From NCBI GenBank assembly GCA_013115145.1, contig JAAPAO010000077.1, forward strand, positions 25,057 through 89,056: a DNA stretch of 64,000 bases, in the 5' to 3' direction. Below the pieces are notes generated by a model. The model saw only the letters and a program-made list of their open reading frames with translations, made no database searches and was not told where the DNA came from. Source of the DNA: Perkinsus chesapeaki. Its lineage: Eukaryota; Perkinsozoa; Perkinsida; Perkinsidae. The position numbers and the translations under genes were made by a program. Shown here in pieces: positions 1-41,000 of this stretch (its first letter is position 1; each line of letters begins with the position of its first letter).

Positions 1-118
1 AGCTCCCACCTCTCAGCATTTGCCTACCCGTGTCCCCACCACATTATGTGGACTTACTGATGAATCCGATGCCGTAGCGACCCGGCCGGCGTCAGCTCCT
101 CGAGCAACGAAGTTTTCT

Positions 119-2104
119 CTAGCATTTCCGATCGCTTTGAGGAGTTCTTCCTGACACACCGCGAGACCTAGAGGGCAATCGACTCTCATTAAACCTCACA
201 GTGAGCTCCCTCTGTGTTGGGACGTCTCCAGTCGAGCCTTCCTCCGAGGCCCTAACGCGCTTCTTTCGAAATCTCTCAGCAACGTCGTCGATCGTTGCAG
301 TTAATGACTCCGTGATCATTTCTGACACAGCTACGCGAGTGAGGGACTTCCTACCACTTGGAATCTCATCAACGTCGACAAGCGACTTCATCCAGCCGGT
401 GGAGCCATCGATCCCCCGATTTCTCTCACTTCTATCATCATCGCATAGGATGCTTTCTGCCACGTTGGTAGTGCCTGAATAATCAACCATTACTTTGCAT
501 TCTCCAGTGCATATCCAGAAAAGCGTCAACCTCCCATGTCCTTGCGAACTCAAGACTTGTGACAAGTCACTTGTCAGGTACCCGGATAAGCTCCTGGCTG
601 TACTCGCTCAATGACGTTCCTAATTCGATGCAACTTGATAAGCGAAAGCTACCCAATTTCCGCCAGGGTGGGTTCGACTCACAACCGCCATTACTAAAGA
701 CGTCCGAAAAAGAATGGCTTTTCAGCAGAAAGACCGAAACAGCCGACGGCTTCACCAAATGAACAGACTTACCTCCGTCTCCGTCACTCGCTACCATCTC
801 CCGCAGAGTTCGATCCCACTGTAACTCAGCAATACGTCGGAACTTAGGATGGCAGACATGTTTAAGGAACATTTTCTTCGATAGTGGAGAGTCCCTGGCA
901 TCATCAACTCATAACTCCACCAGGTCGCCAATGCTTACATGCTCTCAAAAATCCCCAAGGAGATCGCTCTGTCAACCGCGGCCGCGTCCGCTAGCCCTCG
1001 TCGAATTGCTTCTCTCAGGGTTAATAGCCCCAAATCGGTCCCTGAAAGGCCTCCATTCCGCGACTTTGAAAACAGTTCCTCACCGTAATGGCGCAAAAAG
1101 TTCTGCTGCTTCCTTACGGAAGTGAGCTCGAACAATCGACCCATGAGATTCTTCTCAGCCGTTGGTGAGACCAAAACAGACTCAAGCTCGCCAAGATACT
1201 TTCTGCGATTGGCAGAAACATTCTACTCGAAAGATACTATTGAAACTTACATAATCCACTCATCAACGAGATCATCGCCAGCGCACGGACAGAGGGACTT
1301 CAATAGCGTCCGGAAGGAGACGACTCCGATCCCCAAAGCGCCGCCCTTGAGGCTCATAAACCAGCTCTTAAAGTAGGATACCTGCAATCATTCACAGCGC
1401 ATCGATCAGGAGCGATGAGACCTACCTTGTTGCAAAGCTCTCTGTGTAGGACGGTCATAGCGGCTTTCTCAACCTCCACAGTTCCGTCGTCTATCAGCAT
1501 ACTCCTGGCTCGCTCATAAAGTCGACGGAACTCGGAAAGCAGCACTTGACGATACGATCCATCATAGGTCCTAAGAGACGGGACAATTGCAGAAAAACGG
1601 AGGATCTTGAAAATGCAGACACCACAGGCTTGTGAAGACATTTTAAAGAACCTCTGACAGAGGTTGCCCAAAAACATATATACACAAGGACGTGCGTTTC
1701 GAAACGGTCAAGAATTGCTCTAGAAGGATTTGCAGGCTTACAGAGGACACGAGCGATAATGAAAATATAACAAACAAAGGAGGGTTCTCCGAACTCATTT
1801 AACCCTCGGCAAGTTAGTTCCTGGTTGTTGCCCCTCACCTATCAGCGTGCGTCTTCATAAGCGCTAGGACGTTGGAAGCAACTACAACTTCATATTCATT
1901 GAGATACCGGCATTCGCTTCGATGGCTATGGATTGGGCAAACCCGACCGAAACCTGGGGGAAGGCAAATCCCAACATTCCAGAAAGTGGTTCAACTTACC
2001 AGCAGATAGCTCCACAGAGTATGTCGGGTCGTCCAAGGCCACCCTATCAGCAGCACTCTCCTTCAGCCCTCCTTTCGGTGACCCAGCAGCAGCAGCATTC
2101 GGCC
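119..2104 (-). CDS. Unidentified multi-exon gene (exon set)
   Basis: Five minus-strand coding blocks end in plausible splice sites and probably belong to one gene. They are about 2104-1998 (Ala-rich, ending VALDDPTYSVELSA before GTAAGTTG), 1640-1424 (SEFRRLYERARSMLIDDG, ending before GTAGGTCTC), 1140-935 (KQQNFLRHYGEELFSKSR, ending GIFESM before GTAAGC), 872-771 (FRRIAELQWDRTLREMVASD, ending before GTAAGTC) and a last exon of about 477-119. The last exon is acidic then basic (ERFRKKRVRASEEG) and ends at a stop at 119. I recognise no family; the content is helical and charged, suggesting a soluble protein. Exon order and joining are inferred from strand and splice signals only. The intron near 661-697 holds a tRNA-like B-box on the plus strand. 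It could be two genes. Confidence 0.4.
661..697 (+). mobile_element. tRNA-like B-box fragment in an intron
   Basis: GGTGGGTTCGACTCAC lies on the plus strand inside the intron that follows the exon ending near 771, so it is antisense to the host gene. It matches the T-arm/B-box of a tRNA and resembles the fuller tRNA-like introns described in Brr2. It is weaker than those because the flanking exons are not fixed by homology. Confidence 0.4.
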
Positions 2105-2783
2105 TGATGTGGGAAGTACATCGAGCAACACAAGGGCAGATTCCTTATTAGAATTATTAGGAGCTAGTCTGAGCATGAGGATGATGTGCGAGCTCGTAAT
2201 CGTCGAGATATCTTCCAAGCCCGAACTCTATTCTCAGAGAGCTTTTCGTACAATACAATATGACGTGAATAAATCGAACATCTTACTTTAGAAGTATCCC
2301 CCACGGAGACCAACATCTCAAACGGAAAATAGCATTGCGCTCGACGAGAGGCAAGTAAACAGCAAAAGCGCTATACTCACTTTACGAGGCCATCGTAATA
2401 TATTTCACCCGCAACACTTCGGCTGTCTCCCACCTACCTCAGAGAGGGTAAAGCCGCCATGGACCTCGAGACAGCTCCGTCCTCCAAGGCCCATCGGACT
2501 ACTTCATCAACCGAGAGGCACGCTGTCTTTGGAAGATCATCAAATGACAGGTACCTGGAATACATAATATCAATTTGCTGGTGTTGAAATATACTCCTTC
2601 ATATGTGCGCCGACGAAGAAAGTTTCGACAGGAAAATAGGGTCGATTTTTCGGAGCCTTCTAGCTCGAAGTAATGCACATATTGCGATCATTCGGCATGA
2701 CAATTTTAGGACCCGCTTGAGGAACCGTCTACCTGTCGACCGTCCCAACAGCGAGGTCAAACTCTGCAAGTCCCCGGAACTTC

Positions 2784-3602
2784 TTACACGATATCGGCTA
2801 TCATCTTAGCCTGCTCGTGATGACCAATGACATTTCCTCCACCTTCATCAGCAGCAGCTTGATACGGTGAAGCTTCCCCGCCCTCGATGATGATCCTCGA
2901 GGATACTGTGGTGAAGGCTCGAAGAAAATTGGCGACAAGCAAAACCTAAAAAAGGAAGCTGAAAATTCGGTGAATGCGCCGCTGGAACTTTTAGAGTCCT
3001 TGAGAAGCGATGCATTTATTATCAATGGGCGCTCAGCGATCAAGTGTTTGGTTTGGTCATGCATGGGCTAAAGCGGATCCGATGGATCTAGCTTGACCTC
3101 AGAAATATCTTTTCATCATTGCTTCCGACCAACTAAGCCCCACCGCCTTTGGATTCTCTAAGCACTCAGTAAGTACTGGACGGATTCAGGGCCAAGCCTC
3201 TCCCACACTAATAGAGCTCAATAAAGTTATAAGTCATTTAAATTCTAAGTAAAGTAAGATTCTGATGGAGAACAACTCTAAATATCGCGCACCCATTCCC
3301 ATTGAAGCTCCGTCTAAAGCCACGTGCGCACCGCCGTCTATGCGTATAATTAGCTTTCTAGGTTGAAGCTTGCTCGTAACGTCTCTCAAAGATACTCACC
3401 AGCTCATCGTATCCGATCAGGCCATCTCGGTCAAAATCAAACATGCCCGCAATAAACCTCAATTTCGCTTCCACTGTCAATCCTCTACTCCAAAGGCACC
3501 CAACAGCCAGCAGTTGATACATATCAACACCAAGGTTAACTGCCTGCAAGCCATCAGATTCCCCGTCAATACGCAAACCCACACAGTACCTTTCCCAGCT
3601 CT
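2784..3602 (-). CDS. EF-hand-like protein, partial exon set
   Basis: The exon at about 3602-3394 reads SWERYCVGLRIDGESDG, then a stretch ending in GMFDFDRDGLIGYDEL. The DFDRDGLIGYDEL part fits a calcium-binding EF-hand loop (D-x-D-x-D-G-x-I-x-x-x-E). The donor is a clean GTGAGTATCTTT and the acceptor is CATCAG. A terminal exon in the same orientation runs from about 2900 to a stop at 2784 and ends GHHEQAKMIADIV. Joining the two is an inference; one or more exons may lie between. An EF-hand implies a calcium-responsive role, but partner and location cannot be read. The start codon was not identified and may lie above 3602. Confidence 0.45.
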
Positions 3603-3619
3603 GATGACGTAAAGTTTCC

Positions 3620-4960
3620 TCGATGATGAAGCGAGCACGCTAATTTCCGCGCATCCCCAACAGATAGGCCGATCAACTGCGCCGTAGCCTCTTGCGTCAG
3701 TAGCGGTCCTGCATTCGTATGATAACTTATAACTATACAGACATCATATCACCTTTAACGCAGCGGCGCCTGATAAAATGTGTGTACATCTCACAAAGCT
3801 CTGCTTGACTCTTTGATTTAAACACATCGAATTCGGGTACAGAGACAGCCTGAGCAGCACCAATCAATTCTCTGTATTTCCAACGGGCCCCTCCCGAAGA
3901 TGCTCACTGAGCTATATAGAATACTTTGCATTCGAGTTGGTCCTATGAGGCTCTCTGGTTTTAACTATTACAGTTTGATATAGTTTCCAAAAAGTATAGA
4001 CCGAGTCTATTATATGCCAATAAAAGGAGTTAGTTCGTGGAAGATTCTCACCAACTGGCCAACGTCCACAGATGTCATTCCTGCCATAGTAATACGGAGA
4101 TACGAGTTATTCCAAGTCGCAATATCATGCACTCTGCAACGTCCGATGCAATCAACCCTCTAACACCCAGTCGCCGTTCCAGACCCCCTCCCCATGATTC
4201 GATTCTCAATGCTTTTACAGTGCAGCTCATCAACATTTTACCTGGCATTTAACTGGAAGCACCTCTTTAGTACATTCCCTAAAGAGTTCCCCCTGGCAAA
4301 GGATGTAGGCTAATTTCGCTAGCACACTGAATCCTTTTCGTAATCAAGCGAGTTGTACCGGGCAATATACACATACACTTAAACCAGACGTCGATTATAC
4401 TCTCATCACTGACCCTAGTATGACCTTCGTTCTTCCCTTCTCCATTCCAACTATCAGCGGGTCTAGTAATGAACTATGTTCAGACCCCATTCAAGTGCTG
4501 CATCTCGGCCATTATAAGAAGAACTACCAAACGCTACAAAACGCTCCCCCTCCCAACACAAGCATGCTTCACTGGAAACGTTACAGTTTTCACACTTTAG
4601 TGTTGGTAGCTTTTAGTACAAGTATATGAGCTGCTTGGACTCCAGCCACCGTACCCGATATCATCACACAATGCTTCCATCTGAACAACGACCAACCGTA
4701 ACCGTCTTCTAATTGATGACATTCTCCTTTCTTTTAAAGTGTGACAAATCTACTTGACAATTATAACCGCTGGTGAAAACATTTTTCCAATACGAGAAAC
4801 CTAGGATACGGTGCCTAGGATACGCAATTGTGTGTCGACTATCACATCAACTTCCCCATCTTGCCGCAGAAACACAAGCGTAAGCAACGTATCTTGGAGA
4901 TGCTATCTTCTACAAATCCCTCTTCCACTAGCCTCAATAACAGTAAGCAAAACCCTTAGA
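3620..4960. other. No supportable gene
   Basis: About 1.3 kb with only short, low-quality frames on both strands. I see no conserved motif, RNA gene or repeat here. Upstream exons of the EF-hand-like gene may lie in it. Confidence 0.5.
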
Positions 4961-4972
4961 CGTCCCTCAATA

Positions 4973-5290
4973 TTACTTCGCTGCAAGTTGCTGACTAGTT
5001 ATCAATGTACCAGTCTTAGCCATTATACTATCCAGTTCTCCTTCCTTTATTATCCTCTCCAAAGCCTCCTTATCAACATGGCATTCAATCACACAATGTG
5101 TCTTCATAACCTCCATTCCCTCTCTTGCTCCATCACCAATAACATCTGCCGTAATCGATGTTGACGCTGGCGTCTCAGCATTCGATATGACCATTGAGGA
5201 ATCTTCAAGGCCGTTCAACAAACCAACTCTGACACTCGGAATGCTTTCCTCCAATCTCCGATATACGCTCGCCTCTCCTTGATAAAATTA
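4973..5290 (-). CDS. Unidentified C-terminal exon
   Basis: An open minus-strand frame from about 5290 to a stop at 4973 reads RRLEESIPSVRVGLLNG, then a Thr/Ser-rich stretch, then MKTHCVIECHVDKEAL and ERIIKEGELDSIMAK, ending SQQLAAK. The composition looks coding (long, amphipathic, no low-complexity runs) and the opposite frame is poor. No start codon or upstream exon was fixed, so this is probably the last exon of a gene whose beginning lies toward 5300-5560. Family not recognised. Confidence 0.4.
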
Positions 5291-5666
5291 AGCTGACTAT
5301 CGTTCCCTCTGGCTCACCTTCCGACAACTAATGGATATATCCATCGGAATCATTTGAGAGATGTCAGATTTGCGTACTCAGGACACCTATTGAAGTTCAG
5401 TCCCCTGAATGTTTAACGAGAATCCCGAGGCTCCAGTGAGGATACCAATCAGATGATCCCGTTTCGGCTTTTCACAACTACCTGCCCAAAATTGACCTCG
5501 AACATTGCTCTACCACTCTCCCTATTGATACAAACACAACATCATCATTCCCCGCCAACTCCGAGAAAGAAAAAATACACAAGTGTCGATATACACTAAT
5601 AACCCGCCCAGACTTGATGCAAGTAGCGCTCGCCCAGATAATCGATATATAATAATTACGTTACTA

Positions 5667-7770
5667 CTAGCTCGAAGGTGGAGCAGCTGCCATCACTCCA
5701 TTGGCCCCTGTCTGCTGCTGTTGCTGCATGAGGATGTCGTTCTGCTGCTCCGCGGCCTTTTTCAACGTTTTCGATTCCTTCACTCGGTTGCATTTGTTAA
5801 TGCGAATCCCTCCACGCTTCTTTATTTTCATACGAATGCGATCTCCCGATGATAGATTGTAATACGCCAAAGACTTGCTGTCGTCGCTGAAAACATTAAG
5901 GTGCTTTCCCCCATCACCAGCGAGACATACCGGCCAAATTTAATCCGGAATTCCGGCCTTCATACCCCATATACGACAATACAATTTCTCTAGGGCCAAT
6001 CCGGAGACCCGTTATCAACGTAATAATTGTGAAGTCCGTTCTACCCTGTTCACTATATATTCGAAGACCGCCACTATCAAAGCCACGATCTTTTTTTGTG
6101 GTCATACAGTTATCTCGAAGTTTCCCCTTCCCCCAGAGCCCTTATTACTTCAGCACTCCAGTTTCCCTCACAATAAGCTTCATAACCCCTGTTTTCCATC
6201 CCTGTGCTCTCGACTCTAGCATAGCCTTAAGCTCCCCAATGGTCATTCGCATACTCAAATCATCAATAACTATATTATTAGGTGACACTTGGCCCTTCTG
6301 TCGAATCGGTGCTGGAATTCTTTGTATTATACGTAGAGAGAGAGTATCACCTGCCATAAGACTAAATCGATCACGTGATCGATTTCATCATTCTACGCAC
6401 TCTCAAGAATTTTCTAAACGTTCTCAAAGACCATTATTCAGACGACGAGACAGAGCCAGTCATCGACCCGATGCCTGGCAACGGTTATATTTTAAAAAGT
6501 TGAAAACGGTTGAAAAGATAACTGAATTTTCTTCAGTTTTGCCGGCTAAATCCCACTTCAGTCACCCAGCACAAGCACTACCTTTCTTAGCAATCCATTT
6601 ATCCTCGGGCAGCAGATCAACTCCCAATGGTCTTCTAATGCACAGATCACGCATGTGGCCTCGCCAAGGGTCGATGGCTCCGAATCCACGGACGTCCAAT
6701 TCACCCCTTTTCGCTTTATCACAAGTTGATATGATGAAGCCGGCCTTGGAATGGGCGTTCAGGAAAAACGCGCTAAAATAGTTTGGAAGATATGAACGAA
6801 ATCTGGGATGTTTTGGCTTATTTCAACCACAAGCAATTAAACCGCTCTTAAATGAAAATAAATGAACTTGAGCCGCCGCCTTCTAGTTGATCTTCTAGTA
6901 GTTCTAGATTGATCCCGATTCCTTTTGCCACTTCAGTACATGGCCGGAAAATCACAAAGTGCCCTTGAACCAACCTGGGCCGAATGACGAGGAAAATATG
7001 TATTTTGAGTGGCTTCAAATTTAAAAGGGTTACTTGGCATGCTTTTCATAAGGTCAGAGATATTATTCAACAAAGCCCTGAAGCGATGGACTCTTACCGA
7101 TCCGCATCCAAATGGTCCATAACCTTCAACAAAAGAACATCCGGAAGAGATTGCATCACCACCACACACTTGAGATCAAGTTCACCAGGGCGAAGTGTTC
7201 CATCTGAAGCCGTAAAAATTCATACCACATTTCCTCCTACTCGCGCTCAGGTATTACCCCGAGACCTCGCCGCCGAGTGCAATGCGGGTGTCTCCACGGC
7301 AATCTCAGACTGGTCCCTCACCCAGACCAAAATCGATCATTCGATCGATTCGCGCTATTCCTCCATTACTACCTTCCAAGTACTTCACGATCCTACTCCT
7401 CACTGGTTTCGGCAGGAATCTTGCCGCGTTCATCGCAGCATCGTCGCCGTATTTATCCAACTCCGGGCAATAACTATCCGGCTGCGTCCCCAACCCTAGC
7501 GGTGTCTCATCCACAGGATTCCATTGCATTCCAACATACGTATCACGATCACCTAACAACAACCAACATTCGTCACGCGCCACAAAACTCCCCTTAATTA
7601 CTCAGAACTTTCATCTGCGCACATTGTATATGCTTCGCTCTCTCCTCCGGTGTAGCCAATGTAGTTTCATGACCATTACCGCCAGCGATAGGACGTGGCT
7701 CGCGCATGGCCGAAGGTGGCTGCGGCATACCCGACATCATACTCCCGTTATGGTTCATATTGAAACTCAT
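5667..7770 (-). CDS. Protein with SF3A1-type C-terminal ubiquitin-like domain
   Basis: Start ATG at 7770 (MSFNMNHNGSMM, Met/Asn/Pro-rich). Exons read as 7770-7602, 7552-7373, about 7303-7260, about 7212-7092, 6779-about 6579, 6357 to about 6150, and about 5897-5667. The fifth joins the sixth in phase (AKK-G-DTLSLR). The C-terminal region has MRMTIGELKAMLES, then DDSKSLAYYNLSSGDRI and IKKRGG. This matches the ubiquitin-like domain that ends splicing factor SF3A1 (human SNSLAYYN...LKERGG). It is followed by a Gln-rich tail. The upstream part (PELDKYGDDAAMNAARFLP; VVVMQSLPDVLLLKVMDHLD) does not show the SURP domains expected of SF3A1, so this may be a divergent SF3A1 or another spliceosome-associated UBL protein. 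The phase across the third exon is unresolved. A Brr2 gene lies next door, but shared regulation is only a guess. Confidence 0.5.
6358..6407 (-). mobile_element. ATCGATC-palindrome intron end
   Basis: The 3' end of the intron before the UBL exon carries AAATCGATCACGTGATCGAT, an almost perfect palindrome, 15-20 nt before the acceptor TTATGGCAG. The same core occurs in several Brr2 introns and in the giant gene's intron at 63229-63273. Confidence 0.55.
7304..7372 (-). mobile_element. ATCGATC-palindrome intron
   Basis: Intron of about 69 nt starting GTAGTAATGG and ending CCAGTCTGAG. It holds AATCGATCGAATGATCGATT, a palindrome close to that in the Brr2 intron 11472-11519. Confidence 0.5.
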
Positions 7771-8610: not shown

Positions 8611-11600
8611 TCACACTGTGATCTCGACCTCATACTCGTGATCGGCACCCATGAAACTATCGCTCATCAAACACCTAAAATATGATACAGTACATAGTCA
8701 ACAATTATCAATTATAAAATATATATCGGAAGAGGAGCGGTATGGAAAGCTAAGAGAATTGTTAATATTGCAACAATAGCGAATGATGACAAAGACAAGT
8801 AAAATGTAAAAATCGATCGCAGAGAGAGATACCAACTATACGATGTAAGTGGCAAATATATGGCAATGTACAAAATAACAGAGATACTGTTTCCATCCAG
8901 GATCCTCCAAAACGAAAACGCTTCACCGAAACCAGAGCAACCAAGAGCGCGTATTCGTCCCTACAATGTATAAGCGTATTTCCCAGGCTTCTCCGGCAGC
9001 CTAAACTGCAGCTTCGCCTTCACTTGAGCTTGATTGATAGTAACTCTACGGATCGCAACAAGACTGTCCTTCATACCAGCCACTAACCACCAGGATTCCT
9101 CCTTCTCACCAGGATAATACCTAGCAGCTTCAACCATGCACCACACCCGATCTAAAGATACTCTTACTTAGCGTAAACCGGCACGAATCCAGCCGTTTTA
9201 TCGATCACACCCAGATCGCCATCCCTCTCCAATACAATAGGAATCTGTCACGAAATCGATCAACCAAATCGATCAACCGTTTCATCCTACAGTCACAGTC
9301 GTGCCATCCTTAGACTTGTTGATTTTATACTCCATATTGATGCTCGGGAACTGATTGCACGCTTGCGCAACTTCAGCAACTTGTGACTCCGACAAATTCC
9401 GGAATAGTTTATTCCTCTTATCATCGTCCAAGTCCAATATATCAAGCACATCTTCAACCTAAGATACCATCCCACAAAATGGTAAGCAAAAATCGCTTCG
9501 CTCCGCCTACATCCATTTTCTTAGCCTCATCCACGATATCCTGAGTAATATACGGTAACTGCATCAACAGACTAGTGTCCGGTCCCATCGCCTGGACAAT
9601 CATCTGTGACAACTCCATTGCTCTCAATGCTACTCGGTACCTAACACCAAATCGATCACCTGGGCGCGCGCTAAATACAAATCCTACCATTCGTTACTGG
9701 CAACAACATCAACCATGGCTTGAATAAGCCTGGTGGAGTTGATGAGGATGGTCCTCTGGTCGGCTGCGAGATCAGATCCTGGAAGCCTTTGGCGGGCCAG
9801 GTGGGCGTGGAGGAGAATAATGCACTTAACGACCGGATCGCCCTGCTTCAACTTGTTAGTTTCCACAGGAACCTAATCGATCAAAGTGCATCCAAGTCAA
9901 CCTTAAGATACTCCCCACCTTCAGACGCTCAGCCAAGTTCCTGAGAGGTCCCTCCTCGCCAGGGCGAACAGGAATAGACTCGAATTCCGTCGCGCCACAT
10001 AATGCTTCGACCAGAGCGCGCCTCTTGCTGGTGCGGGTGATGTTGCGTGAGAAGATCTCAATAGTCGATGGTCTCGTGTAGTAATACCTGATTAAGATAA
10101 CAACAATTTTTAAATACAAGTGTTGATCATATAATTTAATTTTAATAATCAATTCACTCAATCTGACAGTAAAAATTTTTAAATAAGTCTTGAATTGTAA
10201 AACATAAGCTTAGCATCAACCTAAGATACCAAAACCAACCCAGACAGTTCTATTATGTATATTATTTTGATTCCACAATAATCAATATGTAGCCTGCGTA
10301 TCTGTGATATAACGACGAAGCTCAGCCCACACCACATTGCACCATGCTCACACTACAACCCCATCGAACGAGACTACTATTTTCGATCAACTTGATAATA
10401 TTTCTTCTCAAAAACGTCAAGACGGTCACGCCTGGCGATTCCCCCTCGGAAGATTCCAAAATATCCCCTTAAACGTTGATTGAAATGTATAGAGAAGCGA
10501 TATGACGTAAATATAAGACAACAGCAAATACATCCCACTTACGCTGCCACCATGCCAAGATTAGTGCTGCTCAAGGTTATCTCATCATCACCAATTTCGA
10601 TACAGCCTGTCTGAGCCAAAGCATCAGCAGTCGACTCGATAATCTCAGACAAGAAATCTGATATCTCTTGTGGCGACACACCCTACAAAAAAGTTAAACA
10701 AAAAACGCTTCGCTCCGCCGCTTACCTGTAACGAATAGTAGTTAGGATTGCGTGTGATTCTTCTATAGAAGAATGTCCATGTTAACCAATCCACCGCATC
10801 TTGCTTGTTCTCTATGGTACCCGAAACAACCTAGAAAGAATCTTATCATCGCACTATAAAGATTTCAGATCCGCCCCATTGAGCGATCAATGACATTCCA
10901 AGGAACATCATCACTTTTCCATTTCCCATCCAATTTTTAAACCCGGAATTAGCCCATTTCGTTTTTAAAATGAATCCTCCAGTTCAAGTTCCCATGTATC
11001 GTATTCAGGAAGTGTCCATGACAGTTTATATCGGTATCATAGAAAAGTTCTTCACAAAATTCCGAGTCCTAACTCTACCATTCAGTCCAGAGGTTTATTC
11101 TCATCTACTCTATAATATTAAATATTATTATGACGCATTTATATTAATATTTTTTATTATATTTCATGTATATAATATCTACATAAATTCACACCATGCA
11201 TAATCAATTCCTCAACCCGCCCACCTCAGCATTAAGATGATCCGTAAGTTTCTGATCAAGTTGAGATTCAACGGGCATCGGCTCATAAATGAACTTCTTA
11301 TAGTAATCCTTCTTGGTAGTCGGACACAACAGTGCACACCTACAAAACCGGTAAACAAAAATCGCTTCGCTTCGCTAAACCTACGTAGCATGATCATCAA
11401 TTCCAGGCCGACCAGCAATGGACATCATCTCAACTACATCAGCAACATCATAATCGACATAACGACGTTGCCTGATCAAACGCAAATCGATCACGCGATC
11501 GATTTCACATCCATCTCACCTGGCATCATACTTAACCGTATCCATCACCACAACCATTCTACAGCCCGCATTGCGCGACTGCGGCAAAAGCCCCCAAGCA

Positions 11601-14600
11601 AGGTCAACAGTCACCACCATAATCTGCACAAAAATGCCCCTGCCTCGGTTCGAACCCACGCCCTTACCTGTACTGCGCCACTTTCAAACAGCTCCATTAG
11701 ACAGTCCCTTTCCCTATTGCTCAGACCTTCATGCATGTATCCGACGCCATGCATCAATGACGTCACCAATCCACGCTCGCGAGTCTTCCAACCGTACTCC
11801 TTCGAAAGACCGCTGATATGCTCCTTCATAGCTTCCTCTGATATATGACGGAATCTGCACGCATGCACATAAAGATACAAAATAGGTTAACTCGAATGCA
11901 CCCTTACCTGTCCGGACTGTTATCAGCTGTGGCTTGGAGCATCAGGTCGGCTGCCACCATTCTGCTCTGTCGGCGATCCCCAACAAACACCACCACCGGT
12001 TGAGTCGGAGAGTTCGCCTTAATCAAATTATACCTGTTAAACAAAAACAGTCATTCGTGAATCGCTTCGCTCCGCTAAAGTACGTAGGTCTGGTCATTGC
12101 AGCCATTCTCGCATTTCTGCTGTAGATGTCGTAACCATGAATGATGACCTTCACCGGCACCGCACGAATCTTGGTCGGGAAGTTAAATTGAGAGGATACC
12201 GGTGCGCCCATCCAACCACCGAGATCGTTGGCATTCTGAAAATAAAATGTACCAACCAGGATTCGAACCCACGGCCTCCTTTCTTCAAGAGACCTCCGAG
12301 CCGGATTGACACCAGTGTAGCAATGCAAGTGGCACGTTATCAACCCGATAGTTTCGAAGATTTGCCACCAAATCCCCAAAATGAGTCTATTCCCCAGCGA
12401 AATGGCACTGCAAAAATCTACCGGAAATTTCCACCAATTTTTCCCTTACCAACAACTGTGAGCGGAAATTCACATTTCATCACCGATTTACACCTTGAAG
12501 ATTTTATAAACATAATTCCGCTCGTCTGACTTATGAAAAAGTGCGCCCGATAAAGCGACCGATAAAGGGGACCTACCGAGACGGACGCCGCCAAACCGAT
12601 GATCCTGCATGGCTTGAAAGTCTCTCCATTTTCGGATGCCTGCGCTGCCAAGTTCGAGGTGATATATCTGATACCGACATTCCCAAATCTACACGCATGC
12701 ACATGACACATACCTCATCCTCGACACGCACACTTCCATTGTGGCACCGACTGTAGGGTGATTCAAAAGATGCAGGTCATCGGCAATGAAGAGAGATACC
12801 TGACAATAATGCGAAATGGCCACCAACGGTACATTATCCAACTCGATGCCCAAGTACGGTGGTAAATCCATCGAGCAAAATGCGATTTAATAATCTACAT
12901 TATGATATTAATTCTTTGATGTTACGGGAATGATTCTGATTCTGAATTTCATGACTGGGTAAAAAGTGCTAATTTTTCCACCAAAAACCAATTCCAAAGG
13001 AAATTAAATTTCCCCAATATCGAGAACCTACTCTAAAAAGCATAACGTTGTCATTATTCCACAAAGAACCGCGTTCGAGCACATTCCCTTCCGGCCAAAT
13101 TCAACGGCTTCTCACCTGTTGCACCGGCTTCCGAGTTCTCCACCTCCTCGACAACATATCCCAGTGCTCTGGTGTGGTGATGATAATATGCGACGAATCC
13201 AACAGCTTCAAGTCTTGCGAAGCCTCACCTGACAATCGCCATAATTTAGCTAATTTTCAACCAACGCGAAAATCTTCTCACCAGTGAGTTTCGTAACAAC
13301 ACAGCCGAGGCCTTCTGACCCGAACTTCTTCTGCCAGTCAGTCAACCTCAACTCCGCAAGCCGTTCAAACGGGCACATATATACGCATCGTTTAATCTGA
13401 CAAAATTGGTAAACATGAAACGCTTCGCTCCGCCTACATCATATTCTTTCAGCATCCTTAACACAGCAAACTCGGCACACTGCAATTTTCCAGAGTTGGC
13501 CGGCGCGCACAAGAGCGTGTTCTCATCGCTCTGGAACATCTGTGTGAACGTCTGCGTCTGTATAGGGTTCAACTTGCCAGCTAAGACAATGCGCATGCGT
13601 GCAGGCCTATCTCATACCGCTCTTTCCCCTACTCGCGCCATAGAAGACCTGCTCGGCCTTAGGCCACTTCAGTGCGGTTATCGGCAATGGCATCAGATCC
13701 AACAGCTCAGTCTCTGGAGGATTCCTCTCCGGTAGAATCAAACGACGGAAGTTAACGGGCAACAGAGACTCTGCTCCAATCCACCTGATTGAGAAAAAAA
13801 CGAAATCTTCGCAGTGCGAAAGATACGCCTCAGGGGCTGGCGTATTCCCAACAATTCCAAAGGCGACCCAAAAATTTTCGCGAACCTAATTCGGTTTTTG
13901 CGATCGCCCATCGGCCTTAGGCTTATCAAACGAAACTCAAAGGTAAGCGAAAATTTTCCACTGGTGTCTTTCGATCAACCTATTTGGAATCTTTTGCCCC
14001 GAATGCCATTCCCAAATCCTTACCTGTCCGACACACATCTTATAAAGTAATGTGGCGGCATTGGATCTGTGATAGGCACCGTGAAGGTAAGCGTATGCTC
14101 CTGGTCAGCCTGGGACTGCCTCAGCGCAAACAACTCGTAATATAGTATAGTCTCCTGCTGAGTATCTTCAACAAAGATCCAGAAGGGCTCCGTAGTGGAG
14201 TGAACCTGAAACTCAATTTCTACTACTTCACCCATTTTCGAAATTCCTCTCAAACTGCTACGCGAAATCCCCCTAGTGGCTACGAAAGCAATAGTCTCTA
14301 TAAAATATTCCACCGAATATGATATACTATTCGATATCATACACCTAAGACACCCCATCCCCACAACGCCGCTCACCTTCGGGTCGAACTGGAAATCTGG
14401 CGTCAATGTGAGTTCCACCAGCAGACAGCTACGAGTCAACGGTTGGACATAAGCCGCCAAATCAAGCTTAGGGAACTGATGGACGTATTTGTAGATGTGC
14501 TTTCCTGAAAAGGTCGCGAGTTCAAATCCCAGGTGGGGTATTTTTATAACCTAGTTTCGGCGCCCTCAGAAGTTCACCAATTTCGTGAGGTTTGTAATCA

Positions 14601-17600
14601 TAGTACTGCTCGAAACGAATATCTTTCTTCTCGATTTTACGTAGAATATCCTGAACGTATCCAAGCTTGAAGCGCGCATGATGCAAAATAGCTCATACCT
14701 CCGGTATCTCCTTGAAGTGCCTTAAAGGAGTCTGTACGCTCCAGAAACGCTTCTCGACCACTTTGCTCCAAAGAAGCGCCTTCTTAGCCAGATCGGCCCA
14801 ACCACGACGCAAAGCAATCTCAAATAGAGCACGGAAAATACGACCAGCAGATTGCTCAACATACCTGATCAAACAAAAAGCATGCACGCATGCACAACAT
14901 CATATAAATTCAAAAAGTTGCTATTTCCAAGCGGCGATGTCGGAATACATACCCCTAATCCTAGGCCTTTCAGACCTGCCCCACTGAGTGCTAGAAGGGG
15001 GTCAACCTTGCTATAGCTTTTTACATTAGCATTTATTATTATCTTAATTCCTTAACAAACAGGTTGGTGAAGCATAAAGGACTTAATTTCCAACTGTGTC
15101 CATAACTGAGACTCCACAATACTCCATCATCGTTATTCACTATATTATTATTCCTATAATACCTCAACACTGAAGACCCTCCCTCAGCTTCCCCTCTACC
15201 CCACCATGCCCACACTTACACCATGTCCGCTTGTAAGGCAAATCCATCCAGCGGCAACCGTGAGATATAAGCTTGCAGCAACACGTTTATCTTAGAGCCC
15301 GTCTCCTCAGCACCGCCCTTAACCGGTATGGGCACCTATTTGAGAAAAGATTCCCCAGAGCTTGATTGGCTAACCTCACCTTCTCCACCAGTTTACTGAG
15401 CTCAACCTTCTCCTCTTCTCTAACCGGAATGTATTTGAATTCCGAACTCAATGAGAATAGACGAAGCAGCTCTATATCAGACATGCGGGGCTTTAAATGT
15501 TGATTGTAGACAGCCATAGATGGATATCTGAATTAGAACAGAGGAAGTTACGGTATGAAAATACACAACAAAAAGTTGGAAGATGTCGACCATTTCTTCC
15601 TTAAGTACTTCGTCTAACGAAGCTATCGTTTTATCCTTCGTCAGTTCGACCCTTGCCGAAGCTTCACATGGTCGTTCGTGTTCAGTATATGTTGAGTAAG
15701 TAAAGGGAAGTTGGCCCACTAGTATTAACTGTATAATACTAATTCACATTTCCTATAATAATCATTTGTATAATTTATGCACGTCTCGAACCAGTATTAA
15801 AGATTTTGACGACATCTACAAAAGACTCCCTTCGCCAACGCTGCCTTGCGACCTCGCACGGCAGTGGTGCCAGATGATCATTTCATCCATCACTAGCCAT
15901 CATCTCACCTTCACTTATACCATCACACCATCATCAAAATTTCACGCGCCACAAAATTCCCTTTCTTACTTTATGTAATAATGTGCCGCAACTCTTCCCA
16001 AAGCTGTTATGTGGCATTGACCTGTTCTCTTATCGTATTTTACCAAACCATTCTTATCCAGCATCGACATGGCAGCATGGCAGAGATTAACACGATGCTG
16101 AAAAGGACAGAAATTGACAAATCACACTCACTTCCACAATTCTAAAAATTCTACAAAGCTCAGACCAGCGGGTCCCCCCCCGTCCACGCCGAGCGGCAGA
16201 TAACAAAATCAATATGAAAGCTGGCAAGGACAATTTCGGTGAATTCCCCAGCAGCATTAAAATTCCAATCCAAGCTTACCTGTATGAGCTTAGGATCATC
16301 CCTAGGATTCCCCTCCTCATCCCCCATCGGCACACCGTACAGCTGCGGTGCTTTCATCATCCTTACGTGCAGGTAAGTGTACCCGAGCCAACGGACGGCG
16401 TCATCTCGTGATGCTATGGTGCCAAGTGCCATCTCAGCATTGATCATATCCGGCAGGGCAGATAGCATCTGCGATTCAATGGGAAGTTGAGTATTGTTAA
16501 GTGATAGGTAATATTGAAGCTCAGAACGATTGGTGATGACGATACCTGAGAGAGGGGATGAGAGTGGATTGGACCAGGCTTGAAGTTGAACAAGATTCAC
16601 ACCCGCCATATCAACCCGCATCCCTCAAGCAGCACCAGTGGCAATGCTGTTACCCGTATAACCCAGAACGCACAAGAAATTGATAATTTGATCCATGTTA
16701 TATTATAACAAGAGTATTGATAAAGTGCTTCATATAAAAGTGCCACTACTAATAGCTCTATCCCCCCTATTTCTCACCAATCTAGTAAATGCACTATTAC
16801 CAATGATCTACAACTCGATACGTGTCATTATTATCAATATCTCTCGCCCCCCTACTCACCATGTCCAGTAGTATCATACTGTGGTCGTCCAGCTCTACCC
16901 ATCATCTGCATCATATCCATCGGACTGAGTTCAACCCAATCACCCTTCTCCGGGCTGTACACTTGCGTGCCCTTAATAATAACCGTATGCGCCGGTAAAT
17001 TAACTCCCCACGCCAAAGTCAACGTCGACACCAACACTTGAATGTGACCGTCCGCGAACAGATCCTCCACAGTAGTTCTATCAACTCTGGCCATTCCTGC
17101 ATGATGAATGCCAAAGCCATACTTCAACAGATCCGCCAGATCCGGCGACTTGATCGTGTTCTCAATTTCATTCTCGATAATCTGTTTCGACGCTCCGCTG
17201 TCCGGCAGGAACTTCCCTAAGATTTCCTTCTCCATCGCCATGTCTCTCAGCTCCCTCGCCGTCTTCAACGTATCCTTCCTTGAATGTACAAATATGATAA
17301 TCTGGTTGTTTCCAGCGTCCGCTTCGACCTTTTCAAACAATACTTCGTTCATGACATTAGCCCGTTTAATCGCCTTCTTCGAGCTCACTCCCACATATGT
17401 CTGGTCCAATGGCACCGGTCGATACTCCTGGCCGAAATAGAAGAGCCCACGGTTCAGGTTGACCCTCAAGAAAAGGGCGACATCCTTGTAGTTGGGCAAA
17501 GTGGCCGAAAGTCCCACCAACCGAACGTGCTCCTGAGTCTGCTCAATCTGCCGCAACGTACGAGCAACTATGGATTCGATGACAGGACCACGACTGTCGT

Positions 17601-20600
17601 GTAGAAGATGTATCTGAAATAATGAAACAAGAACCTCCTTGCGCTCAGTAATCTCCACAGTCTATCCCGCGCTCTTCCCCACAACAGTTCTTGCCGCAGT
17701 GAAGCTACTCCCAGTCGGTAAAATGCATACCGACTCGAGCTCCTATGATTCCCCTCCTTCCCCGCATTCCTCCCCCAACTACCTCATCAATTATAATGAG
17801 TTTAACCAAAGCCGTGAAGCCTCGACTTTCGCCCGCCTTCCGAGTGACAACATCCCACTTCTCAGGAGTAGTAACAATAACATTGGTCTGCTCGATCTGT
17901 TCACGGCTGAGGGATTGGTCGCCGGAAAGCTCCTTAACGGTAAGACCGAGGTCTCCCAAACGAAGAGAGAAGGATTGTACGACTTCCTGAAGTACAGAGA
18001 AAATAGCCGGTCGGTATAATCCTTTGCTATCATCCAGGCAACCCCGGTTCGATCCCCGCCCACCTGCACAAGTGCCTTCATTGGCGCGACATAGACCATC
18101 TTGAACGCGCTCGTATCGAAGCCATCTTCAGTCCTATACTGCTTCAACACCTACCACACCAGCAATCCTTCCTATGTCTTCATACCGACTTTTTCTCACA
18201 TTCATGATCGTCAGCATAGCAACATTAGTTTTACCAGCACCAGTTGGCGCACACATCAATAGATTCTCCTCAAACTCGTTGTATGCCACCGGGAAGACCT
18301 GAACAACAGTGCAGCTAGAGGTGTCAGAAAATTCAACAAAACTCCTCACCTTCGATTGTACAGCATTCAACCTCTCAAAGTGCTTGAACGCCGGCCACGC
18401 CCATTCCGGTAGAGCGTCCTTAACCTGATCACCATAATTTAGCTAATTTCCATCGTCTTCGAAAACCCCCCTCTACCTTGATCAAAGCTCCCTCTTTAAC
18501 CTTTGCCTTCGGTGGCGCCTGCACCACCACTTCCTCGTATCCTTTATGGCTCGAGGTAAACACATCGGTGTTCTTAGCGGGCTCAAACGACTGATTGCTC
18601 ATAAACCTAAGCAATCAAAATTACATTAAAAATGCCCGTACCGGGGATCGAACCTGGCTCCTCCAGGCAACTGGAGATTCTCCAGATCCAAGAGCTTGGT
18701 AGGATTAGGCATCTTAGCAGCTTCCTTATTCTCTCCAGTGGAGTCGGGCATCTCAACATCACCATCATCATTGGCTGTAGAGGACCGTTTCTCGCCTTCC
18801 CTCAGTTTCTTAGCCTCGGACCTGAACAAGTTAACTTCACATTCACCCCGCAATACATTAGACATTCCGTAAAAGAAAAGCCCTACAAGACGACCTCCGG
18901 GAACTACGGGCGCAGGCGATATTTTTCTTCCTTTACATTTTTACCAACTAAGTCGGCCTGGAATATTTCAATTTCGCGTGGCTTACAGTGTTCCTGACAA
19001 TCTGACAGCTGCAAATAAGAATATATTTCACTGCCGAGATGCCTTATACCGTGAACCCATCCTCCCACCTTAAATTCCTCCTACGGCTTCCACCGGCCTC
19101 TCTCTCGCCCTCCTTATCCCCTTCGCCAGCCTTGTCGTAGTCTTCGTGATGATGAGCAATACGCCATTCCTCAACAACCTCAGCGGCAGCTGGATCCTCG
19201 GTCATCTCTTTCTCCAAAGCTTCACGCTCCTCTAAAAATAAAAGTACCCTCCGTGGGATTCGAACCTGTGCGGGTTTGCCTACCTGGGGTTTGGGCTTGA
19301 TTTATCTTCGTGCAGTACCATATCTTTATCCTGTTATTAACCAAGATCTTGCAGAAGTCGAAGTGCTTATATTTGAAGATTTGCACCAACTTATTCTCAA
19401 CGCTCTGCGAGTCCGGCAACCTCAGCACGTCCAGAATAGATTTCTCCACCGAGATGACTTCCGAGCTATCCTTAACTCTTTTACCCTGATAACATATGAA
19501 TACAATAGATAGTAATAAAGTAGGTAGGCCACCGCCGGGCCACAAACACATTACCCTAATACCAAGCGAATAAAGGGGCGATGATAATACACAGTACAAA
19601 GGTACCGAGACATATACGAAGAGGAGAAGAAGGAGCAAAAGAGGAAGTTCATAAATTACCAGACAACTTCACCTAGCAACACCAAGGCAAACTATATCTC
19701 AACTGGTTAGACCAATGATACTTGTTGTACATTTTACAAATGCATCTTAACTGTTCAGAGACTAGAACGCGCAGTCACATGAACCACAGGCAATTATCCA
19801 ACCTCAACCGACCCAAGAAGTTTATTACAAGTTCTCTCTGAAGCCAATGTGAATGGATCTTCTGGACTGGCAGGTCGGTCGAGGAAGTGTTCCTCTTCTT
19901 CGCTGCCGGGCCTTCATCCCCCTCCTCATCACCAGCCTTAATACCGGCATCTTCATCATCATCTCCACCTAGAAAAGTAACAGCATCGATTCGAACCCAC
20001 GACCTTCACAATAGCAGCCCAACCCCTTAACCATTACCCCGTTTCCTCCTCTTTCCGCCAGCGTCCATTCTATCATCCGCATCAGAATCTTCAGAATCGC
20101 TACTGGATTCATCCGACACTTCATCAGCGTACAACATATCATCATCTCCTCCCATCTCTGAAATTAATCCACATACCCTTCCAATGGAACGAATCCACAA
20201 TCACACCACTCGATGACGAACAGCTCAACTAGTTTCAGTAAGATATCGAATAAGTTATATTATCAATCTCACACCAGTGGCCGCTCATAAGCGTATTCAC
20301 TGATCGATAATAATAATATAACTATATACAGTACTAGACATCCCACAATTCCTATTATGTACCATAATAGTTTATATACTCTATGGATAAAATATGTATT
20401 ACCCCTACCACACTATAATGACACTGCACTCAATAACAACCAACCTTCCCCCAACTCACCATCATTCTCATCATCCTCATCAAAAGTAACAGCAACACCT
20501 GCCGGATCATCAGCTGCCCCTGCCAGCAGTGCAGCATCGACCTCCTCTGCTCCACCAGCACCGCCGCCCTCAGCGGCAGCCACTCCTTCATCCTCATCAA

Positions 20601-31348: not shown

Positions 31349-31405
31349 CTGGAAAATTAAATTACAGTAAAAATACCTGAGCCGGGGATCGAACCTGGGA
31401 CCTAC
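31349..31405 (-). mobile_element. tRNA-like element, possible 5'UTR intron
   Basis: 57 nt reading GTAGGTCCCAGGTTCGATCC, then CCGGCTCAGGTATTTTTACT, ending TTTTCCAG. It has GT and AG ends, a good B-box and the GTATTTTT run, like the Brr2 elements. It lies in the gap between divergent genes, 37 nt above the minus-strand ATG at 31312, so splicing is not proven by homology. Confidence 0.6.
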
Positions 31406-38018: not shown

Positions 38019-41000
38019 TCACTCCAGAATTGAACCATGCAGTTGTTGACGGACAAGGTTCGCGTACCTTAGAAAGAGAAAGAGCACGCAGCGATCAGAC
38101 AGCTGAGCTAACCTGCCATCCTCAATTGCTAATAGTTGGTGATGTGTCCCCTGTTCGGCCACGCGACCGTCTTCTATATAGATGACCACGTCCGCTCGCT
38201 GGACTGTAGACAAGCGATGAGCCACGACTATAGTGGTACGTGATGAGCTTAGCCTGAAGAAGGCGTTGACAAACTTGGAAGAGAAAATGGAAAGCGGAAA
38301 TAGGCAGTTTGTCTATTAGTCGCTGATTGGACTGACTAGTAGAGGATCTGCGATGTAAATGAAGTAAGCAGTCCCTATCATTTATTGTAGAAGTGAGCTT
38401 GGGGGCTCCTTATCACTACTAGTAGTAGTAGTAGTAGTAGTAGTAGACAATATTCGGCAGTACAGCTGGGCAGTTGAGAGTCAAACAGTGCGAGAACCCA
38501 TGTACAACGTATCATGTCGAGACCGGTAGGAAATTGTGATGGAGTTCCTGTGGACACTGTAGCAATTTGACAAGGTTGACGGTTCATCACAGTTGACAGG
38601 AGGAATAGGATCTCTTGACACTAACTACATTCTTACTCAGTTACCCATACGGTGACGACAGACACTAACATGCACTCTGGTCCTGCAAAGTTGCACATAA
38701 ACTGCTTTCTTTGGCTTATAAACTCGCACAACCGGATGATTACTCGTCCAGGGCCTCTTGAACCTTTCTTTCGTTCTCGGCATCCAAAGCGCTCGTAGCT
38801 TCATCAAGCAGGAGTATCTTCGGTGAAGCCGCCATTGCTCGAGCGATTGCGACGCGCTGCTTCTGCCTGGATCCAGCAAATTAGAGTTGCCCAGCGAACT
38901 GATGCTACCCTCCGCTGAGTTGAACTCCTCGCTCGCCGACGAGCGTGTTGTAGCCTTCCGGGAAAGACATTATAAAATCGTGGCAGTGTGCTGCTCGGGC
39001 GGAAGCCTCGACCTGGAAGAGGTAGAGCAAGGCGGCCTTGCCAATGCCAGCTTTGAGAGTTCGTCACTTCATCGAGGGTGATGTCATCTGCGGCACCGTA
39101 TTTGATATTGTCCATTATAGACGTTGAGAAGAGCACTGGCTCCTGAGGAGTGACAGTATGGCAATAATGGAATCATAATCCGGATTCAATGTATTAGATA
39201 TCAATCATCAGAACATAATAAAAATTAGCAGCTCATAGAAACGACACGTCGGGAGTGACGTTGTCCTTCATTGGCACTATACTCTTTCAAGCAGTGGAAG
39301 ATTGCAACTAAGTAGTTCTACAATACCGCTTGGGCTCCCCTGCGCATTCTAGCTCGAGGGAATAGCACAACCCACATGTTGGGAACGTTCGACTAGTCAC
39401 AAGAAAGGATGCATCGTTGTATTTGGTTGTATTTCTGAAATACTATTTCACAAGGAAATACAACCGGAATGACAACAAGTTGATCAAATGCAAGAGTTAA
39501 GGTCGAGGGTTCGATCCCCGGTACCGGTATTTATCATACCTGAGCCACCAAGGATACATTTCGTCTTAAACAGTCATCCTTCAACGTAGCCAAGCTCCTT
39601 CCATCCAGAGCGATGATTCCAGAGTTCGGGTCGTAAAAACGGAGGATCAGAGAAATACAAGTCGACTTGCCGGCTCCGCTGTGACCGACTAGTGCCACCG
39701 TCTGAAAGCAGCTCGTCGCAGAATCTGACACTGGAAGTTCCAGTGGGGAACCGACGCCGAGTTTTGGAATTCGTTGTGGGAAGTTTTTCAGGTAGTGAGG
39801 TGGCGAATGTTGGTCTTATTGATGAGATAGGATGGAAAAATACAGGAATGAAAAGATTCCTTATACTCCTCTGAGCGATGTATCTTGGTTGTATGATACA
39901 ACTTGTATCTCAACTTAGGAAAATGTCGATAGCAGACTGGAGGAAGTAGAAGCGATAGGCTAACTCGCATTGACACACCTGTCCTGGCTGTATGGTGAAT
40001 GTTATCCCCTTGAGGACATGGAGGTCACTTCTGGCAGGATAGGCAAACCACACTTCGGTGAAGGACAAAGAGCCGTTACAGACCAAAGGCTGATATACTT
40101 CATCAGAGGCTACCTGACAAAGGCTCAACTCGGAAGCCAGGCAAACGATTGTGGAGCATATCTTTACACCTGAAATGCAACTCCAATAAATTCATAACTG
40201 CACTATTGCACAGCACCACCGGTTCAACTGTACCGAAAACGTTCCTGTGTCATCCGAGTGCTGAACGAACACGTAGGGTGTTCCTCCTTCAAGCGGGAAA
40301 ACATATTTCCTGTCGAACTTTCCAGTACATTTCGGCATGAGGAACACCTCAACCCTTTCGAGGTTGAAGGATTCCCTCCACTCGATAGCTCGCGATAACC
40401 TTTACGTTACAACCAATAGCAGGCTTACTTCGGTCAGCGAGGCTTGTTGCGGCCGGCGATCGATATATTCAAACACTTTCACAGTTGCACCGATGGTCTC
40501 GGCCAATTTGGAGAACACCTCGGACAGGCCAGCCACCGAGCCGCCAATACTGCCGAACGTATAAAAGAGAAATGACATCAACGTGCCTAATGGGAAGCTG
40601 ATGGACACGCGAAATGATGTGGGCTGACCTGGAAGCATTTCGCCTTCGAGCACCAGACCGGCACCGTACCAGACCACGGACGTCATAGCAGTGAAGATCA
40701 TCATACCAACCACCCAGCTGAAGCCTCCGAGACCGAAAGACTTTCTCACGCCAATCCCGTAGCTCTCATCGACATGAGCGGCGTATCTGATCAGAGAGCT
40801 TCCGAAGAACGATATTGAAAGTCCGACCTGGCCTCGGCTTTGGCTTCTCCCTTAGGGAAAGTCTTAACAACTCTTATGCTGCCAAGTGCCTCTGTGGCGA
40901 CCTCGGTCGAATTGGCGAGCTCCTTCTGATACCCTTTAGACAGTTTACCAACGAACTTGGCGTAACACATGGTAGCGATTGCAGCTAGAGGAACAATGGA

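Follow-up and report, generated by a model that had tools for sequence, protein, structure and literature searches.

The 64,000-nt stretch of contig JAAPAO010000077.1 analyzed here (hereafter, the window) belongs to the 35.4 Mb, 884-contig assembly of the clam parasite Perkinsus chesapeaki. It contains Brr2 (minus strand), an ABC transporter gene and FOL47_010202 (53781–63674), as well as a predicted gene at 13–7770 for which a homologue search found none. Introns of the three named genes carry a short repeated element resembling the T-arm of a tRNA, with a B box of RNA polymerase III (Pol III) followed, 10 nt on, by ATTTTT (an A and a run of T residues, the T-run). The initial annotation had proposed that such "tRNA 3′ halves", in both orientations, make up most of several short introns and that they might be tRNA- or SINE-derived introners, which would seed introns.

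T-arm introns in the window and at further loci

Exon borders in Brr2 were fixed with two spliced protein-to-DNA alignments, one against a profile of 11 homologues (≤57% identity, P. marinus excluded) and the other against the P. marinus protein, with 1,840 of 1,952 codons identical (94.3%). Six of the seven Brr2 introns proposed to contain a T-arm are exact in both alignments (Table 1). The 3′ border of the seventh, at 19969–20037, is uncertain: its 5′ border is backed, the other is placed at 19963 by homology and at 19969 by the gene finder, and the P. marinus protein falls short of this intron, which holds a longer tRNA-like copy with the A-box-like TGGTTAAGG. In the intron at 12236–12576, the sense T-arm (12243–12275) is located at the 3′ end and its T-run extends into the acceptor, while at 14505–14550 the complement of the T-run stands at the donor. 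The intron at 17987–18063 has its B box (18046–18056, plus strand) near the 5′ end, with no adjoining T-run, and the one at 18607–18653 begins with GTTCGATCC, homology placing its donor within the B box. A further match of the word search, in the intron at 15528–15969, was discounted, as GGTTCGA is not followed there by NNCC.

The gene finder in use predicts 25 of the 28 Brr2 introns exactly, a figure that is partly in-sample because its splice tables come from Brr2 introns without T-arms. It replaced an earlier self-trained one that drifted and found just 16 of the 28, and it is too weak on loci of 801 bases for genic or intergenic calls.

In FOL47_010202, alignment of the deposited protein to the window gives 39 introns and identity at 1,995 of 1,995 residues, and the proposed T-arm intron at 60180–60227 is removed exactly, despite an open frame and a length that is a multiple of three. 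All 39 introns are phase 0, and one of them (58496–58755) holds a sound tRNA-Pro gene in antisense (58654–58725); ARAGORN found no tRNA in the partner intron, 62077–62192 (116 nt).

The remaining two cases in the window did not hold. The exons of the ABC transporter stop at ...VAQ and restart at EPVLF, which delimits an intron at 39143–39539, and the segment 39498–39539, taken initially for a whole intron, is merely its 5′ end. As a coding intron, 31349–31405 is unsupported, since a stop codon lies within six codons of the acceptor in all frames.

Beyond the window, 20 translations joined across a removed T-arm intron were tested (10 picked by eye from 23, plus all 10 loci of a second set), and six align to known proteins across the junction (Table 1). 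At four others (L053, L064, L116, and L119) the junction is spanned, but below Pfam's own cut-offs. The claim that a T-arm repeat with B box and terminator constitutes whole minimal introns, in both orientations and in several genes, is therefore upheld in Brr2, in FOL47_010202 and, by homology, at further loci. Overall, the initial observation is partly to largely confirmed; that the T-arm introns are spliced out is predicted from homologous proteins, from frames that stay open and from a single deposited protein sequence.

Table 1. Introns and elements discussed in the text (core positions marked + are given on the plus strand).
Feature	Coordinates or locus	Strand	Length (nt)	Element	Basis
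Brr2 intron	11624–11667	-	44	sense T-arm, core 11630–11662	both Brr2 alignments
Brr2 intron	12236–12576	-	341	sense T-arm	both Brr2 alignments
Brr2 intron	14505–14550	-	46	antisense T-arm, core 14513–14545 (+)	both Brr2 alignments
Brr2 intron	17987–18063	-	77	antisense T-arm	both Brr2 alignments
Brr2 intron	18607–18653	-	47	sense, element core 18628–18660	both Brr2 alignments
Brr2 intron	19232–19283	-	52	sense T-arm, core 19240–19272	both Brr2 alignments
Brr2 intron	19969–20037	-	~69	sense	homology and gene finder, 3′ border uncertain
Brr2 intron	13397–13437			GCGGAGCGAAGCG family	P. marinus alignment
Brr2 intron	12034–12083			GCGGAGCGAAGCG family	P. marinus alignment
Brr2 intron	11340–11384			GCGGAGCGAAGCG family	P. 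marinus alignment
Brr2 intron	10683–10725			GCGGAGCGAAGCG family	P. marinus alignment
Brr2 intron	9459–9510			GCGGAGCGAAGCG family	P. marinus alignment
T-arm element, intron status unsupported	31369–31401	-		T-arm	matrix match, high score
ABC transporter intron	39143–39539	-	397	antisense T-arm, 39502–39534 (+), at 5′ end	3′ border hand-counted on sequence
FOL47_010202 partner intron, internal duplicate	55927–55967	-	41	no T-arm	deposited protein
FOL47_010202 intron	60180–60227	-	48	antisense T-arm, core 60193–60225 (+)	deposited protein
P4-ATPase	L063				match spans junction; Pfam none
Phosphatidylserine synthase	L060				match spans junction
CCT-delta	L011			antisense	match spans junction, one-residue gap there
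Glutamate synthase	L020			antisense	match spans junction
Kelch	L059			antisense	match spans junction
Topoisomerase I	L113				match spans junction

Brr2 and FOL47_010202 together have 77 introns, seven of which hold T-arms (those starting at 11624, 12236, 14505, 17987, 18607, 19232, and 60180). Six of the eight strong matches to the element matrix in the window lie within these 77 introns and none in exons, in line with the proposed excess in introns. Fifty of the 77 are 41–53 nt long, one is 61 nt, one 77 nt and 25 are at least 116 nt, so that the length distribution is sharply two-peaked (41–61 nt and ≥116 nt), with the 77-nt T-arm intron as the sole one in the range of 62 to 115 nt. Ordinary minimal introns measure 41–53 nt, and short T-arm introns backed by homology measure 42–57 nt, with one of 77 nt. 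Since a 33-nt core cannot enter an intact 44-nt intron without lengthening it, the element must make up most of the short intron, either by creation or by replacement.

A dispersed family with a tRNA-like 3′ end

Because Brr2 had been picked by the initial annotation, the main weight was placed on genome-wide tests. In the window, GGTTCRANNCC occurs seven times against 0.87 expected, and none of 100 shuffles reached seven. In the genome (counts include true tRNA genes), GGTTCGAATCC was found 368 times and its reversed word eight times, and a B box followed after 6–14 nt by ATTTTT was found 216 times against one for the control. Among the 100 places listed, the gap is exactly 10 nt in 93. This layout corresponds to tRNA positions 63–72, A73 and T5, and the whole pattern to positions 52–73 plus a Pol III-type terminator. 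The pattern with a 10-nt gap reaches 755 matches at up to one mismatch (five in the control) and 1,608 at up to two (37 in the reversed control). Together with the window shuffles, these genome counts rule out a chance origin of the motif. From these counts we estimate a decaying family of about 2,000 copies, at about 14% per site. For comparison, the tRNA scan of the genome gave at least 62 matches, and 63 of 3,361 candidates were scored.

In a 264-kb sample made up of the window and 200 kb from fixed places (positions 10,001–20,000 of 20 contigs), of which predicted introns occupy 24%, GGTTCGATCCC is the top over-represented dispersed 11-mer (11 occurrences against 0.07, two of the 11 in tRNA-Arg genes). 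Two tRNA-Arg(CCT) genes, at L020:1007–1079 and L020:3432–3504, occupy predicted introns of a single gene, to which both are antisense. An empty-site search of 208 non-self pairs from 121 loci (tRNA genes and overlapping loci excepted) gave, at ≥70 nt, only one pair with a T-arm, L056 and L068. Their 112-nt common stretch, 87% identical, includes the T-arm but continues downstream, as a longer repeat of another kind.

Conservation was measured in 41 copies chosen by pattern, in which the B-box letters are hence fixed beforehand. It extends from tRNA position 46 to the T-run and the next base (0.45 bit) and is at most 0.22 bit elsewhere; no conserved tRNA-unrelated body or tail was found on either side. 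Among the letters that the pattern leaves free, G46, C48, C50, and positions 70–72 (GGY) are well kept, and T33 is not. The 3′ end is fixed and the 5′ end is ragged, as copies are mostly recognizable only from about tRNA position 44–46, and some from the anticodon loop. The 10-mers at positions 63–72 form subfamilies (68 pairs at least 8/10 alike, against 28). The copies are dispersed and carry a Pol III B box and a terminator, as expected of tRNA-derived short interspersed elements (SINEs).

The upstream region was examined in 66 copies (68 minus the two tRNA-Arg genes of L020). Depending on which of two patterns is used, 7 or 14 copies have an A-box-like word at the distance typical of tRNAs, against 2–4 in controls, which leaves an A box in about one fifth of the copies at most. 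Words of the D-arm show a weak excess upstream (1.4–3.1 standard deviations above shuffles). Of 70 GTGGTTA–B-box units genome-wide, 9–10 are degenerate by eye and the others resemble true tRNA genes. A tRNA covariance model, proposed initially as a test, detected none of the elements, either in the window (E 5) or in 47 additional loci (E 10), so that they are not real tRNA genes. Of the term "tRNA 3′ half", the B box, the geometry of the 3′ end and the terminator stand; the tRNA structure does not, given the missing model match and a T-stem paired no better than by chance. The excess of target-site duplications (TSDs) looked for at the borders is weak: direct repeats of at least 6 letters flank 20 of the 66 copies against 12.2 expected (mean 2.3 standard deviations up), but they have no fixed place. 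At locus L001, an 11-bp repeat flanks a tRNA-like unit. At L070, CAGGTGA stands at either end of one intron, and the T-arm match at 679 belongs to a 77-nt candidate intron that starts with GTAAG and by eye is nearly a whole tRNA-Met-like sequence; the tRNA model nevertheless gives this intron no score.

Splice signals accompany the element. GTAAG is present 2–24 nt upstream of the exact core (ATTTT version) in 61 cases, against five for reversed GTAAG. The spacers peak at 6 (12/61) and 12 (11/61), the part between donor and element being variable in length; a spacer of 6 puts AAG at tRNA positions 43–45 and one of 12 puts GTAAG at positions 35–39, where it also occurs in three of the tRNA-Thr genes examined. 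In the 66 copies, GTAAG, GTGAG or GTAGG lies within 35 nt upstream in 23, against 2–11 in controls. For antisense use, CTTAC follows the T-run 12 times, against 0 for the wholly reversed pattern (which is not a reversed-donor control), and in the 66 copies it gives a weak signal, with 6 against 1. T-run–AG acceptors are observed at the candidate introns, and these splice sites may have come with the element. TCGAT was rejected as a branch point because it has no fixed position in the introns. Overall, one repeat family forms many introns, which is one trait of introners.

Age and origin of the T-arm introns

FOL47_010202 contains an internal duplication (192 of 401 and 144 of 310 aligned residues identical) that allows one T-arm intron to be dated. 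Twelve of the 14 comparable intron positions are common to the two halves within one residue, and the intron sequences are unrelated. The intron at 60180–60227 has its counterpart in 55927–55967, at the same position but unrelated in sequence. Its T-arm is near the family consensus (33 bits on the element matrix), whereas neutral intron sequence would be saturated between duplicates at 46–48% protein identity, so that the element should be younger than the duplication. Most likely, then, to judge from this comparison, it entered a pre-existing intron after the duplication. In this one datable case, the proposed seeding at new positions is contradicted, and an intron with a T-arm is accordingly not always a new one. 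A search for paralogues of FOL47_010202 returned only the gene itself, its own internal repeats and one weak match.

The repeat family is firmly established, as is its use as introns; a retroposed origin is the likeliest reading, and the putative intron gain is contradicted in one case. On balance, with moderate confidence, we favor the explanation that the T-arm pieces belong to an old tRNA-derived, SINE-like dispersed repeat, many copies of which act as minimal introns. The fixed 3′ end of the repeat consists of a B box and, after 10 nt, an A in the place of tRNA base 73 and a T-run that would terminate Pol III. An RNA ending in the terminator U-run may have been copied starting at its 3′ terminus, 5′-truncated copies being inserted, and copies in genes would have persisted where they were spliceable. 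Sense copies could survive in genes because their truncated 5′ end coincides with, or closely follows, a GTAAG-like donor, and because the T-run with AG serves as acceptor; in antisense copies, the complement of the T-run would lie at the donor. At least one copy probably took over an existing intron.

Several observations weigh against this explanation. A usable family match is absent for 10 of the 20 joined translations. The 10 non-tRNA matches in the 200-kb sample comprise five in predicted introns, one in a predicted exon and four outside predicted genes; the lone exon match is an antisense intron according to its glutamate synthase match. A broader set of antisense donors shows no excess (8/66 against 3–8), and the excess of direct repeats is small: those whose downstream copy adjoins the T-run number 11 in the 66 copies against 8.1. 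Positions 66–69 are near random in the 41 copies, and of the 66, 19 keep the T-stem pair 49–65 and 26 the pair 51–63, below shuffles (28.7 and 33.1), the pair 50–64 being formed as often as in shuffles. The poorly paired T-stem and the near-random positions imply that an ordinary tRNA was not the parent and that no single master gave rise to the whole family.

An alternative that we consider unlikely is that pieces of Pol III transcripts rewrite Perkinsus introns at fixed positions, tRNA-like 3′ fragments having been copied into genes, where they became or replaced whole introns. Some of these fragments would start in a tRNA-Thr-like anticodon loop, whose GUAAG would offer a ready 5′ splice site, and they would end in an oligo(U) acting as polypyrimidine tract. 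It is likewise not very probable that the pieces are remnants of ordinary tRNA genes that died in introns and were trimmed to T-arm and terminator. The tRNA-Pro gene in an intron of FOL47_010202 and the two tRNA-Arg genes in predicted introns at L020 (the other four tRNA genes there lie outside predicted genes) are consistent with this, as are one copy (C209, at L115) in which 26 of the 28 places between anticodon loop and T-stem match the tRNA-Thr(AGU) of L016, and the match of positions 35–43 to some tRNA at ≥7/9, seen in five of the 66 copies and in 15 of 660 controls. However, the tRNA model detected no T-arm element at E 10 in the 47 loci, the T-stem is paired less often than in shuffles, and neutral decay would not spare the B box, the 10-nt gap, A73 and T5 and yet erase the 5′ half. 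Moreover, an acceptor partner upstream was found in 5 of 66 copies against 5.8 expected, which also excludes a split tRNA with its 5′ half upstream.

Whether the element made most such introns at new positions, as a true introner, is a question compatible with the SINE-like explanation, to which it adds gain; we regard it as rather doubtful. For gain speak the fact that the element plus some 10–25 nt equals a whole intron of ordinary minimal length, the similar behavior of other short families, and the six ABC transporter paralogues (40–47% identical) that continue through the site of 39143–39539 without an intron; a seventh (54%) stops four residues short, and the paralogues are too distant to decide on gain. 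Against it stand the position at 60180–60227, which predates the element, and the 12 of 14 common positions with unrelated intron sequences. Self-copying, by reverse splicing of an excised tRNA-like intron into other transcripts followed by its return to DNA, would account for whole-intron copies of about minimal length and for the frequent GTAAG starts, but we hold it to be highly improbable: four of the 10 matches in 200 kb lie outside predicted genes, the gap between donor and element is variable, and it is the T-run, not the splice sites, that anchors the family. Selected TFIIIC sites, i.e., B boxes acting as chromatin marks and located in introns by chance, would explain why the B box is well kept, although its letters are fixed by the search pattern. 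This too is very improbable, as it leaves tRNA positions 46–48, A73 with T5 and the donor excess unexplained, and as the counts at zero, one and two mismatches resemble decay.

Other intron families, known systems and significance

A second short family, GCGGAGCGAAGCG or similar followed by a T-rich stretch, makes up whole 41–52-nt introns of Brr2 (Table 1). With TTTTTGTTT behind it, GCGGAGCGAAGCG has 26 exact matches in the genome, 20 of them at loci L071–L090, against none for the reversed control, and no signal links it to the region upstream of the T-arm (z -0.3). Other over-represented words in the 264-kb sample, with many copies in predicted introns, are GTATCTTAGGT, GTGGCGCGTGA, and GAGCGGTATGA, and inspection by eye of the window and loci L011–L030 added GCATGCGTGCA, AATTAGCTAAATTATGG, and GATCGATTTGG. 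Perkinsus introns look like mosaics of many short repeat families. Near tandem duplicates also exist within loci (L026:8477–9481 and 4193–5201, 91%; L015:3955–4633 and 848–1540, 83%), with no T-arm matches in them.

Truncated tRNA retrocopies and tRNA pseudogenes retain the 3′ part and lose the 5′ part. Unlike these, the Perkinsus element has not kept the T-stem, is near random at positions 66–69 and is present at more than 1,500 places. AfuSINE2 similarly has an oligo-T tract and A and B boxes that are degenerate, does not fold into a cloverleaf and traces to several tRNA-like origins; it is 140–493 bp long with a tRNA-unrelated region and TSDs of 4–14 bp (PMC5063351). The Perkinsus element differs from it in having no body, a 33-nt conserved core and whole-intron use; no word starting with "intron" occurs in that AfuSINE2 text.

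Introners are described mainly as families resembling DNA transposons and bearing TSDs or terminal inverted repeats, with RNA-based families proposed for fungi (Gozashti et al., 2022; PMC9860276). The Perkinsus element is like introners in that a short repeat is the intron body, that splice sites may come from the element, the duplication or the flank, and that copies lie in and outside genes. It is unlike them in its tRNA-like 3′ end with terminator and the lack of a clear TSD, and in that intron gain is putative. The main text of that paper makes no mention of tRNA, SINE or Perkinsus. Abundant repeated introns are also known in Amoebophrya, a parasite related to Perkinsus, where the introner elements have inverted repeats of 8–20 nt, direct repeats of 3–5 nt and non-canonical splice sites (Farhat et al., 2021; PMC7789003); the Perkinsus introns are modelled as GT-AG. 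In one literature collection, no titles or abstract openings referred to tRNA- or SINE-derived introners or to introners of Perkinsus, although a few mentions of introners together with tRNA or SINE occur in PMC12879420, PMC6726248 and PMC12235515, and we did not find an earlier description of a tRNA-like repeat as a source of introns.

The origin of new intron sequence is a long-standing question. If the T-arm repeat is tRNA-derived, it would represent a source besides the DNA transposons that are held to drive most introners (Gozashti et al., 2022; PMC9860276). Our results suggest why such DNA is tolerable in genes: when AG follows it, a T-run can function as a splice acceptor. If pieces of Pol III transcripts did rewrite introns in place, intron position and intron sequence would have separate histories. 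The case of FOL47_010202 suggests that short introns made of repeats can occupy old positions, so that introner-like counts should not be equated with intron gains.

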